In this document: positions 45,440 through 58,377 of the stretch, in pieces | Layout: each line of letters starts with the position of its first letter | Position numbering within the stretch: the first letter of the stretch is position 1 | DNA from: Citricoccus sp. SGAir0253 | GTDB taxonomy: Bacteria; Actinomycetota; Actinomycetes; Actinomycetales; Micrococcaceae | Assembly (NCBI RefSeq): GCF_005877055.1 | Contig: NZ_CP039424.1 | Coordinates: forward strand, 1,550,001 to 1,614,000 | Length of the DNA: 64,000 nt | Reading direction: 5' to 3' | Notes under the pieces: model-generated | What the model was told of the DNA's origin: nothing | Databases searched by the model: none | The model's input: only the letters and a program-made list of their open reading frames with translations | Translations under genes and position numbers: made by a program

Positions 45440-45498
45440 TTAGACCGCCTGGCGGTAGGCCTCGATCACCTCGCGGTGAATGCGGCCGCGGGGTGAGA
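45440..45498 (-). pseudogene. lsr2: lsr2, 3' part (separated by the composite transposon)
   Basis: Minus-strand codons from 45494 down read PRGRIHREVIEAYRQAV and stop at TAA (45440-45442), the Lsr2 DNA-binding C-terminus with its RGR motif. The 4 bp 45495-45498 (GAGA) repeat at 58136-58139. Joined to the 5' part at 58136-58377, with one GAGA copy, the frame is 297 bp, in phase and complete. Confidence 0.93.
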
Positions 45499-45528
45499 TG
45501 ATCCGCCCCGGGTTCGGTGGAGGCTCGG

Positions 45529-46458
45529 TTATCTGGTTCCGGCGGTGACTTCGGCCGGTGCGGTGGGAGCGTAGTGCGCCCAGTGCTGGTGCTCGAGCTC
45601 GGCGGGTGGGACGAGCCCGATCTCTCCGTGCAGGCGTCGGTGGTTGAACCAGTCGACGTACTCGGCGACGGCGATCTCCACGTCGGTGACACACTTCCAG
45701 CCCCCGCGTGGGCGCATCGCGGGGTTGCGGATGCACTCGGTCTTGAACAGCGCGTTGAACGCCTCGGCGAGGGCGTTGTCATACGAATCGCCCTTGGACC
45801 CGACCGACGCGACGGCGCCGGCCTCGGCGAGCCGCTCGGTGTAGCGAATTGCTCGGTACTGGACTCCGCGATCGCTGTGATGGGTCAGGCCGGTGACGTC
45901 CTGCCCGGCGCGCAGCCGTGACCACAGGCCCATGTCCAGGGCGTCCAGTGCCAGGTCGGTGCGCAGGGAGGTGGAGACCTGCCAGCCCACGACCATCCGG
46001 GAGAACACGTCGATGACGAACGCCGCGTAGGTCCACCCGGCGTGGGTGCGCACGTAGGTCAGGTCCGCGACCCACAGCTGGTTCGGCGCGTCGGCGACGA
46101 ACTCCCGGTCCACCAGGTCCGCCGGCCGGGGGGTCTGCGCGCCGTCGCTGGTGGTGGTGCGCCGGGTCTTCTCCCGGCTGATCCCGCGCAGCCCCTGCGC
46201 CCGCATGAGCCGTTCGACCGTGCAGCGGGCCACGGTCGTGCCGGTTCGGTTCAGCTCGGCCCAGGTCTTCTTGGCCCCGTAGACGCACAAGTTGTCCTCG
46301 TAGGTCTTGCGGATCAACGCCACCAGCTCCTCGTCGCGGACCGCGCGCGCCGACGGCGCCCGGGTCTTGGTCGCGTAGTACGTGCTCGGAGCGATCTGCG
46401 CCGCGGTGCCGGTGAGCACCGCGCAGATCGGCTCGACCCCGAGCTCGCGCCCCTCCAC
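45529..46458 (-). CDS. IS3-family transposase OrfB (left copy)
   Basis: The 309-residue DDE integrase-type protein has rve-domain blocks: catalytic Asp in [16 protein letters not shown], second Asp in [15 protein letters not shown], Glu in [17 protein letters not shown], and the C-terminal [19 protein letters not shown]. The frame continues upstream of the GTG start ([15 protein letters not shown]) into the OrfA end, so the full enzyme is probably made by frameshift fusion with OrfA. Confidence 0.95.
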
Positions 46459-46490
46459 GACCTCGTGGCGGTGAGCGTCGATGTAGTCGA

Positions 46491-46811
46491 CTACCTGCCG
46501 GACGGGCGGTCGAGCTCCGCCGCAAAGAAAGCCGAGGCCGTCTTCAAGATGTGGTTCGCCCGGCGCAGCTCCCTGACCTCACGCTCCAGCTCGACGATCC
46601 GGGCAGCGTCCTGGCTCGTCGTCCCCGGCCGCTGCCCACCATCGACCTCCGCCCGCTTGACCCACGTGCGCAACGCCTCCGGATGCACGTCCAACTGGCC
46701 CGCGATCCGACGGATCACCACCATCCGCTGATCACCGGCCGCGATCGCGTCCAACGCCATCCTCGTGGCCCGCTCACGCAGCTCCTCGCTGTACTTCTTC
46801 GGTGCCGGCAT
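46491..46811 (-). CDS. IS3-family transposase OrfA (left copy)
   Basis: The 106-residue protein has a helix-turn-helix ([20 protein letters not shown]) and a leucine-zipper end ([20 protein letters not shown]), which recognises the element ends. ATG 46811 lies nine bases after AGGAGG; an ATG at 46820 is too close to it. Confidence 0.93.
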
Positions 46812-46861
46812 GACTCTCATCCTCCTGGGTTGAGAGCCTCCACCGAACCCGGGGCGGATCA

Positions 46862-47226
46862 AGTTCGGCTCGTCCTACGGCCAGCGCACTCCAGTCTTGA
46901 ACCGTCAGGCGGGTGCCCGCCTCCACGTCGGCCAGCCGGGCGCGAAGCCAGACCGGGTCCTGGAGACCTCGCTCAAGCGCGAGGTTGCCTAGCCCGCTGT
47001 GCGGGGCGCGGCCCGCGACGTAGATCGTCAGGCGGCCGCGGAGGCCCTTGCCGCTGCGTTCACCGGCGCGGCCGACGTAGACCAGCGCAGACCCCTGACG
47101 GAAGAGGTAGACCCCAGGCGTGGTCGGCGACGTGCGAACGGCATCTGCGGTGAAGGGCAGCCAGTCCGACCAGGCGGCCAGCCGCGCGACGTCCCCCGGA
47201 AGAACTTCTCCACCAACAGCTGCCAT
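46862..47226 (-). pseudogene. GIY-YIG-domain protein truncated by the IS3 element
   Basis: From ATG 47226 the frame gives an N-terminal segment (LPGDVARLAAWSDWLPFTAD) and the GIY-YIG-type core TPGVYLFRQGSALVYVGRAG then GKGLRGRLTIYVAGR. At 46861 it runs into the IS3 end and reads out of it to 46774, so the original C-terminus is lost. GIY-YIG proteins are nucleases of mobile elements and repair. It lies 34 bp downstream of the acetyltransferase gene. Confidence 0.75.
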
Positions 47227-47260
47227 GACGTCGACGGTAAGGCCTGTGTCGGCGCTGGCC

Positions 47261-55992: not shown

Positions 55993-56201
55993 TCCCCCCG
56001 CCCTCACGCCACGGCACGGGCTCCTGATACCCACCCACAGCTCAAGCCCGGCGCTCTTGCCGCATCCTGTGTGGCGTCAAGCCTGCGTGCTCTGAGGCGC
56101 GATGACAGACCGGCGCCTCCACAGCGGATGTGCGCGTCGGACTGGGTGGGACGAGCCGATCGCCTTGCTTACGTGCTCACGCGCGCGAGGCGGCTCGGGG
56201 G

Positions 56202-56690
56202 TCAACGCCAGCGGGCGAAGACGACCAAGAGGGTTCCGACGGCCACGATGGCAGCCGCGTAGGACAACAGATGGTCACCCGGTGGCCTGCGGACGAGCTC
56301 TTCGAGGAAGCGCACTGCGAGGACCAGGACCAAGGTCGCGGCGACTTTCGACTTCAGTGCGTCGAAGCCCTCGGTCGTCAGCGCCGGGGGGAGGTCGAGG
56401 TCGCTAATGCAGAGTTCCCACATGCCCAGGCCGACTTGGAGCAGCACCGTGCCGACCAGGATCGTGTCGATGCTCTCGAAGAGCAGGACCAGGGCTTCCT
56501 CGCTGGTGCCGGTACCGATCGCCCTGATGAACAGGACCGCCTTCACCAACGCCCAAACGAACGCCGTGGCACACAGCAGCAGGGACGTGATGGCGCTGAG
56601 CGCGCCGAGCCAGCGCGCCGACTCCAGCGCGCGACCGAGCCTGGACACAGTGCTCTGACGCGGCTCATCGCGCCCGGGTGCAGGATCCAA
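56202..56690 (-). CDS. YqhA/UPF0114 membrane protein
   Basis: The 162-residue protein has four helices and the UPF0114 core LLFESIDTILVGTVLLQVGL then GMWELCISDLDLPPALTTEG and FDALKSKVAATLVLVLAVRF. Function unknown. It converges with heliorhodopsin and ends the cargo before the right IS3 copy. Confidence 0.85.
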   Translation of the reverse strand: MDPAPGRDEPRQSTVSRLGRALESARWLGALSAITSLLLCATAFVWALVKAVLFIRAIGTGTSEEALVLLFESIDTILVGTVLLQVGLGMWELCISDLDLPPALTTEGFDALKSKVAATLVLVLAVRFLEELVRRPPGDHLLSYAAAIVAVGTLLVVFARWR

Positions 56691-56767
56691 CGAGACGCCC
56701 CTCCAATGCTCTTGACCAACACCGCCTATGAATCGCCCCGGGATCGGTGGAGACTCGGTTAGTTGGT

Positions 56768-57751
56768 TTAGGCCTCGTTGAGGACCTTCTCCTCACGGTA
56801 GTGGGTGGTGGGGTGTCGGGACCAGTAGTTGGTCTCGAACTCGACGGGCGGGACGTGGCCAAGCTCGCCGTGGAGGCGGCGGTGGTTGTACCAGTCGATG
56901 TACTCGGCCACGGCGATCTCGACGTCGCCGACGTGCTTCCATCCGCCTGTGGGTCGCATCGCGGGGTTGCGGATGCACTCGGCCTTGAACAGCGAGTTCA
57001 GCGCCTCGGCCATCGCATTATCGTAGGAGTCGCCCTTGCTGCCGACGGACGCGACCGCCTCGGCGTCGGCGAGTCGCTGGGTGTAGCGAATGGCTCGATA
57101 TTGGACTCCGCGGTCGCTGTGATGGACCAAACCGGTCAGATCGGCGCCGCGGCGTCGGCGTGCCCACAGCGCCATGTCGAGGGCGTCGAGGGCGAGGTCG
57201 GTGCGCAGCGAGGTGGAGACCTGCCAGCCCAGCACGATCCGGGAGAACACGTCCAGGACGAACGCGACGTAGACCCAGCCGGCGTGGGTGCGGACGTAGG
57301 TCAGGTCCGCCACCCAGAGCTGGTTGGGTGCCTGCGCGACGAACGCGCGCTCGACCAGATCCGCGGGTCGAGGCGTTTCCGCGCCATCGGAGCGGGTGGT
57401 GAAGGCGTGCTTGGCCCGTGGGATGCCGCGCAGTCCTTCGGCCCGCATCAGCCGTTCCACCGTGCAGCGAGCCACTTGATGGCCGGTCCGGACAAGCTCG
57501 GCGTGGACCTTCCGCGCGCCGTAGACGCCCAGATTCTTGGTGTGCACGGTTCGGATCTCCTTCGTCAGTTCCTGGTCGCGGAGCGCGCGGGCGGAAGGGG
57601 TGTGCTGTTTCGCTGCGTAGTAGGTGCTCGGAGCGATCTGCACGCCAGCGTCCCGCAGGACGCGGCAGATCGGCTCGACTCCGAGTGCACGGCCCTCGAC
57701 GATCCGATCGCGGTGGGTGTCGATGTAGTCAACGACCACCGCGACCGGCAC
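56768..57751 (-). CDS. IS3-family transposase OrfB (right copy)
   Basis: The 327-residue DDE transposase has [31 protein letters not shown] and [17 protein letters not shown], and ends [10 protein letters not shown]. It aligns end to end with the left copy with many substitutions. Start at GTG 57751; fusion with OrfA by frameshift is likely. Confidence 0.95.
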
Positions 57752-57762
57752 CTCCCGAGTGG

Positions 57763-58083
57763 CTACCTGATCTTGCGGTCGAGCTCCGCGGCCGCGAAAA
57801 AAGCCGCGCTCGTCTTCAGGATCTCGTTCGCGCGTCGCAGCTCGCGGACCTCGCGTTCCAGCTCGGTGATCCGGGCCTGGTCATCCGTGCTCAACCCGGG
57901 ACGGATCCCGCCGTCGACCTCCGCCTGCCGGACCCAGTTCCGCAACGCCTCAGGGTGGACCCCCAACTGGTCGGCGACCCGTTTGATCGCCCCACGACTC
58001 GTCTCGGGATCCTTCCTCGCATCCAACGCCATCCGCGTCGCCCGCTGCTGGAGCTCGACGCTGTACTTCCTCGGTGCTGACAT
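57763..58083 (-). CDS. IS3-family transposase OrfA (right copy)
   Basis: The 106-residue protein has a helix-turn-helix ([20 protein letters not shown]) and leucine-zipper tail ([20 protein letters not shown]). ATG 58083 is chosen by analogy with the left copy ([12 protein letters not shown]). Confidence 0.93.
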
Positions 58084-58135
58084 GACTCTCATCCTTCACT
58101 GGTTTGAGAGCCTCCACCAGACCCGGGGCGATTCA

Positions 58136-58377
58136 GAGACGTCGTATCCGTTTTCCTTGGCCCAGGCCCGGATCCGGGCCGCTTCCTGTGCCGGCTTCGG
58201 GGGCGCCACCGGGCGGGCAGAGCGCACATAGGTCTTCAACTCGGTCCGCAGCTGCTTGGCGTTGTCCTTGGTCAGGTCGAGCTCGTAGTGCCGGCCGTCG
58301 ACACCGAATTGGACGGTTTCGGTGGCCGGTTCACCGTTGAGGTCATCGACCAGCACTGTTTTCACTTTCTGTGCCAT
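58136..58377 (-). pseudogene. lsr2: lsr2, 5' part (separated by the composite transposon)
   Basis: From ATG 58377 the frame reads MAQKVKTVLVDDLNGEPATE, FGVDGRHYELDLT and IRAWAKENGYDV, most of Lsr2, then enters the IS3 end in the codon after Val. The missing PRGRIHREV... end is at 45440-45498. The truncated product (93 residues with IS-encoded tail SPRVWWRLSNQ) lacks the RGR DNA-binding motif and could be a dominant-negative oligomeriser. Confidence 0.95.

Follow-up and report, generated by a model that had tools for sequence, protein, structure and literature searches.

A putative composite transposon bounded by two different IS3-family elements interrupts an lsr2 gene in Citricoccus sp. SGAir0253

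In Citricoccus sp. SGAir0253, an lsr2 gene on the minus strand is interrupted by a 12,637-bp block, which carries an IS3-family insertion sequence (IS) at each end, here called IS-L and IS-R, and about 9.9 kb of cargo genes between the two. The block occupies positions 45499-58135 of the window, by which is meant the whole stretch of 64,000 nucleotides that was analyzed, corresponding to bases 1550001-1614000 of a 3,323,969-bp contig (NZ_CP039424.1). The assembly has 3 contigs with a total of 3.56 Mb and is 99.99% complete. One copy of the tetranucleotide GAGA is found at each side of the block. A preliminary description of this DNA had placed the break of the lsr2 codons at 58136, their resumption at 45494 and a GAGA outside both ISs, and these coordinates are right. 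When the block and one GAGA are taken out, the gene runs from an ATG at 58377 to a stop at 45440 in a 297-bp frame of 98 amino acids plus the stop codon, so that the empty site is rebuilt exactly, as had been described. The joined protein is over the cut-offs for both Lsr2 domains (PF11774, 87.1 bits; PF23359, 55.9 bits), and its RGR motif is present. The probability of a chance 4-mer match in the window is 0.0067. Apart from the GAGA match, an insertion is independently supported by the reading frame that is restored and by the alignment to relatives.

Uncut lsr2 genes are present in plasmid NZ_CP133844.1 of Citricoccus sp. I39-566 and in another genome of the genus (G003, contig C368), and the lsr2 flank has its best plasmid matches in Citricoccus. 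In the alignment of the joined site to the plasmid, 241 of 290 aligned bases match before the junction and 162 of 226 after it; the corresponding values for G003 are 207 of 275 and 152 of 239. The aligned stretch after the junction takes in the terminator-like region downstream of lsr2. The left flank alone, around and beyond the 3' end of lsr2, matches the Citricoccus plasmid with 72% identity over 199 bp (E = 8.7e-26) and the G003 contig in two pieces (83% over 52 bp and 75% over 61 bp). The sequence across the junction is GAGGTCTCAG in the plasmid relative and GACGTCTCAC in the joined window. The alignment is gapless across the junction with a single TCTC (the complement of GAGA), which indicates that the duplication is 4 bp long. 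Relatives with an uninterrupted lsr2, proposed as a check in the preliminary description, were thus found in both the plasmid and G003, with one TCTC in the plasmid. Next to lsr2 in the window lies a gene (58546-59091) with a lipoprotein-like N-terminus; this gene also adjoins lsr2 in G003, where it is inverted.

Both ISs can be assigned to the IS3 family from the DDE integrase-type orfB, the overlapping orfA and orfB frames, the TG...CA ends and the duplications of 3-4 bp. The two orfB products pass the transpos_IS3 model NF033516 (286.7 bits for IS-L, cut-off 160), and the HTH domain PF01527 is found in the orfA of IS-R. The elements are directly repeated with 74% DNA identity and identical runs of at most 28 bases, which agrees with the earlier view that the bounding elements differ and form a hybrid composite. 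The outer pair of ends, made of the right inverted repeat (IRR) of IS-L and the left inverted repeat (IRL) of IS-R, matches at 24 of 28 positions, the same as the own pair of IS-R. The tips are TGATCC at both ends of IS-L and TGAATC at both ends of IS-R. IS-L is flanked by GAGA and AGTT, and IS-R by CCTA and GAGA. Since the inner flanks AGTT and CCTA are unlike GAGA, there is no target duplication around either IS by itself; flanking repeats belonging to either IS, which the preliminary description had named as an observation that would count against joint movement, were not seen. One full copy each of IS-L and IS-R is present in the 3.56-Mb genome, with partial matches of 65-76% elsewhere, on contig C2. 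With a single full copy of each element, a separate source copy is not seen.

The block therefore has two ISs flanking a cargo, a target duplication outside the pair only, and a target gene that is uncut in relatives. Judged from these sequence features, the block at 45499-58135 is a putative heterologous, that is two-species, composite transposon. We propose that the transposase of one of the two ISs would have brought together the outer ends, the IRR of IS-L and the IRL of IS-R. A circle with these outer ends abutted would then have formed, as in the biochemistry of the IS3 family, and its insertion into the accessory lsr2 would have duplicated the 4 bp GAGA, with both ISs travelling together in a single step. 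The direct orientation of the ISs makes the outer ends one IRR and one IRL, which is the natural type of pair. IS-L also cuts a second gene on its inner side, as would be expected of an element that had earlier resided in a donor replicon. Both ISs keep open orfA and orfB frames, which we count in favor of transposition as a unit. In the general scheme for circle-forming ISs, the length of the spacer in the circle equals that of the direct repeat, although IS2 itself departs from the scheme with a 1-bp spacer (PMC3299598).

The preliminary description had the whole 12.6 kb moving as one unit. One net insertion with a 4-bp duplication, the uncut relatives, the similar outer ends and the lack of individual duplications are directly observed, and this part of the claim stands. 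Movement in one step is likely, with a probability of about 0.6, but not proven, as a two-step route also fits. Several observations weigh against one-step movement of the unit. All four cross-pairs of IS-L and IS-R ends match at 24 of 28 positions, so that the similarity of the ends does not pick out the outer pair. When IS loci in relatives were inspected for target duplications, 36 were examined, of which 10 without an end pair were dropped; 26 had a complete end pair and 25 were scorable. A duplication was found at 6 of the 25 (3 bp at five, 4 bp at one), which we count in favor of the unit, and 19 had none, which counts against it. In 6 of the 25, the ends are poorly matched (at least 6 mismatches on a side), which makes the absence of a duplication there less sure; among the 19 with well-matched ends, 13 lack a duplication and 6 have one. 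The 19 of 25 without duplication suggest that the IS group of IS-L and IS-R often occurs in rearranged contexts or composites. Furthermore, the whole unit was not found at another site in 295 genomes of the family and 394 of the class, which, the present genome aside, gave pieces only; these genomes are samples of larger groups, and one or two candidates were scored per genome in the family, class and IS-R searches, so that all tallies from them are lower bounds. Finally, a targeted insertion beside a resident IS would predict the same letters at the site.

This last point leads to the rival that survives best, in which an IS alone would have inserted into lsr2 with duplication of GAGA, and a circle of the other IS and the cargo would later have been joined by transposase precisely to the tip of the resident IS with no new duplication. 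This is the behavior of the translocatable units of IS26, circles of one IS and its cargo that insert beside a resident IS and make no further duplication. A route of this kind predicts exactly the order GAGA, IS-L, cargo, IS-R, GAGA in direct orientation, it accounts for the difference between IS-L and IS-R, and the IRR tips of the two elements match at 24 of 28 positions. A precedent within the IS3 family is the megacircle of one IS2-like element and its cargo, for which no target duplication was observed upon integration beside a resident copy; the elements there were near identical, however, and the authors left homologous recombination open as an explanation (PMC6350997). The final structure at the present locus is compatible with an IS26-like mode, but no intermediate state was met in the family-wide cargo search or in the IS-R search, the latter giving no IS-R- or IS-L-like element in the other 7 genomes of the genus (E limit 1e-150, at most two candidates scored per genome). 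The two-step route also requires more events. We regard it as unlikely, although it deserves serious weight.

Import of the cargo by homologous recombination between IS copies would be helped by the 74% identity of the elements and their identical runs of up to 28 bases. A single crossover within the ISs would, however, leave one tip of each type per element, whereas IS-L and IS-R each have matched tips, and when identity was scanned against 13 of the 26 relatives with complete ends, no switch from one element into the other was detected. Such recombination is disfavored by the matched tips and the lack of chimerism, and appears very improbable. Independent insertions or an assembly error, with a GAGA match by chance (probability 0.0067), are scarcely credible: the halves of lsr2 complement each other, their alignment crosses the junction without a gap, and the contig has a length of 3.32 Mb in an assembly of 3 contigs with 99.99% completeness.

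Two copies of one IS are commonly regarded as a requirement for a composite transposon. The composite transposon proposed here, with its heterologous ends, is unusual yet recognizable as such, and it suggests that related IS3-family elements may act on each other's ends. It follows that units of this kind would escape searches aimed at identical flanking copies. Its general plan is that of Tn6097, where passenger genes lie between two copies of ISPfe2 and everything moves together; the ISs of Tn6097 are identical copies (PMC3281130), in contrast to the two IS species with 74% DNA identity in our case. The 210-kb IS2-like element of Burkholderia thailandensis is also an IS3-family composite, for which a circle was shown, while one is only proposed here. 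That element has near-identical ISs, and its integration beside a resident IS left no new duplication (PMC6350997), whereas the present block has two different ISs and is enclosed as a whole by a 4-bp repeat. Pseudo-composite or hybrid composite transposons, likened here by name only, have at their ends ISs other than a plain pair of identical copies. The single IS3-family elements known from plasmids of Gordonia and Rhodococcus and from other actinobacteria share orfA and orfB, a similar length and, in most, TGAATCGCCCCGGG-type ends. Their DNA identity is about 63-80%, and no such cargo unit was seen with them in the flanks read, which were short for most. In the literature matches listed, neither a two-species IS3-family composite nor a heliorhodopsin on a bacterial transposon appears in the titles or the beginnings of abstracts. 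The block would place a heliorhodopsin and a Balon-like protein, together with further genes of stress type, on a unit that is probably mobile.

Table 1. Positions of the lsr2 parts, the two ISs and the cargo genes in the window
Feature	Position	Strand	Evidence or remark
lsr2 3' part: PRGRIHREVIEAYRQAV, bears the RGR motif, plus stop	45440..45494	-	aligned to uncut relatives
Target duplication GAGA, left copy	45495..45498	.	site sequence, flanks joined
IS-L, IS3-family	45499..46861 (1363 bp)	-	ends match 28/28; orfA and orfB open; NF033516
Conserved hypothetical gene truncated by IS-L, start codon uncertain	46862..47226	-	homologues; ORF without Pfam match
GNAT acetyltransferase	47261..47881	-	PF00583, 44.6 bits
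IS30-type transposase, HTH_38 and rve domains	47988..49163	-	domains
Winged-helix regulator	49416..49811	-	PF13412; relatives near ATPase on two plasmids
Universal stress protein	49808..50491	-	PF00582, 78.2 bits
P-type ATPase, calcium-type, start codon uncertain	50784..53771	-	PF00689/PF00122/PF00690
baeRF family 3 protein, Balon-like, start uncertain	53906..55147	+	PF18845, 83.9 bits
Heliorhodopsin, 282 aa	55144..55992	+	PF18761, 311 bits; NF038020, 312 bits (cut-off 100)
UPF0114/YqhA membrane protein	56202..56690	-	PF03350, 63.3 bits
IS-R, IS3-family	56729..58135 (1407 bp)	-	ends match 24/28; orfA 57763-58092, orfB 56768-57751
Truncated lsr2 frame, 93 aa plus stop	58096..58377	-	last 13 residues from IS-R end, first such codon shared
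lsr2 5' part: dimerisation domain and start of DNA-binding domain, to ...NGYDV	58136..58377	-	PF11774, partial PF23359
Target duplication GAGA, right copy	58136..58139	.	site sequence, flanks joined

The cargo genes are listed in Table 1. Homologues of the hypothetical gene cut by IS-L were found by tblastn in 5 plasmid records, and the 2 examined of these 5 both run 33 residues beyond the point where IS-L starts. The IS30-type transposase has related stretches in family genomes at 69-81% DNA identity and, among the plasmid matches listed, one annotated as IS30 family; the ends of an IS30 element were searched for around it and not found. The best NCBIfam match of the ATPase is TIGR01522, with 745 bits, below the cut-off of 798. 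The baeRF3 protein matches the ribosome hibernation factor model NF052287, which we take to represent the Balon family, at a sub-threshold 190.5 bits (cut-off 330). The start of the heliorhodopsin gene overlaps the end of the Balon-like baeRF3 gene (the pair spanning 53906-55992), and this overlapping pair was present in none of the other loci examined. Heliorhodopsin is over the cut-off in 14 of the 295 family genomes and in 1 of the 8 genomes of the genus, both counts including the present genome. Among the loci compared, which came from the best 80 of 320 places in the heliorhodopsin scan, the closest heliorhodopsins are those of a metagenome-assembled actinobacterium (74%), Actinotalea (69%) and a member of the family, G092 (69%). 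This distribution fits acquisition of the gene from outside the genus. The G+C content of the cargo is without clear distinction.

The cargo genes are found elsewhere in smaller combinations. The regulator, the ATPase and YqhA lie near one another on a Pseudonocardia broussonetiae plasmid (L067) and on a plasmid of Arthrobacter U41 (L068), the former also with baeRF. Of the compared loci with numbers from 28 upward, those of the present genome left aside, only these two share at least three cargo genes, and no heliorhodopsin was seen in the stretches of them examined. A match to the cargo was found in 47 of the 295 family genomes (E 1e-60) and in 7 of the 394 class genomes (E 1e-150), own genome included in each count; apart from the own copy, all are single genes or parts. 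Of 72,556 plasmid records, 44 match, and the best coverage among the 20 listed is 20%, which comes from the IS3 part. The other 7 genomes of the genus gave an ATPase-like fragment in one and nothing else at an E limit of 1e-60. A relative carrying only part of 45499-58135, which according to the preliminary description would speak against movement as a unit, was not found among these 7 genomes, in each of which up to two candidates were scored.

The insertion leaves a predicted Lsr2 remnant that ends within IS-R (Table 1). The open reading frame containing it, 58096-58425, scores 86.7 bits for PF11774, while PF23359 is matched at positions 4-23 of 37 only, with 26.6 bits against a cut-off of 26.9. 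The remnant keeps the dimerisation domain and is without the RGR motif, which lies beyond the insertion; with the DNA-binding domain lost, it has the domain composition of an H-NST-like anti-silencer. In Mycobacterium tuberculosis Lsr2, the N-terminal domain of residues 1-61 forms a dimer (PMC3374832). H-NST and truncated CgpS are likewise silencers reduced to the dimerisation domain; silencers in truncated form can be dominant-negative, and overexpression of an N-terminal piece of CgpS derepressed prophage genes (PMC7074111). The truncation in our case differs in coming from a transposon insertion, and the anti-silencer role is putative. The available text of PMC7002338 contained nothing on truncated silencers.

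The genome has five Lsr2-domain loci including the broken one, and one of the other four holds an internal TAG. Besides the broken gene, two loci of this kind lie in the window, at 8230-8397 (with a TAG in the matched frame) and at 22451-22801, the latter with both Lsr2 domains and near a TrwC-type relaxase gene. Because four other Lsr2-domain loci remain, silencing overall is probably not lost. The preliminary description, in which an Lsr2-type silencer was knocked out, holds in that the gene is broken and is too strong in view of these loci and of the dimerisation domain kept in the remnant. Lacking RGR and keeping that domain, the remnant could poison the remaining Lsr2-type proteins. The TGA of the remnant lies inside IS-R and the ATG of IS-R orfA follows 3 bases on in the same frame, so that translation of lsr2 and orfA could be coupled. 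By analogy with the truncated silencers, the transposon might then have made its own anti-silencer, the 93-aa remnant poisoning other Lsr2 proteins and keeping the cargo and the IS-R transposase expressed, with lsr2 possibly feeding the transposase by coupled translation; we consider this a long shot. A promoter scan around the lsr2 start and the end of IS-R found none, and as 0.1 would be expected by chance, the result is uninformative.

The insertion site had been described as lying on a plasmid. Its location on contig C1, with a length of 3.32 Mb, makes the site chromosomal and rules out a plasmid location. The window also contains the TrwC-type relaxase gene (17055-20918) and a serine recombinase gene (8785-10173), which suggest that this region of the chromosome is plasmid-derived or an integrative island. 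Immediately downstream of the lsr2 3' fragment there is an IS256/Mutator-type transposase gene (PF00872, 43970-45250), to which six plasmid records from Arthrobacter and related genera match at 85-88%. Elsewhere in the window, an M-box (magnesium) riboswitch at 37003-37176 and a thiamine pyrophosphate riboswitch at 27668-27777 score above the Rfam gathering scores. Between 38842 and 40955, translations judged by eye point to a candidate second universal stress protein followed by a candidate enolase.

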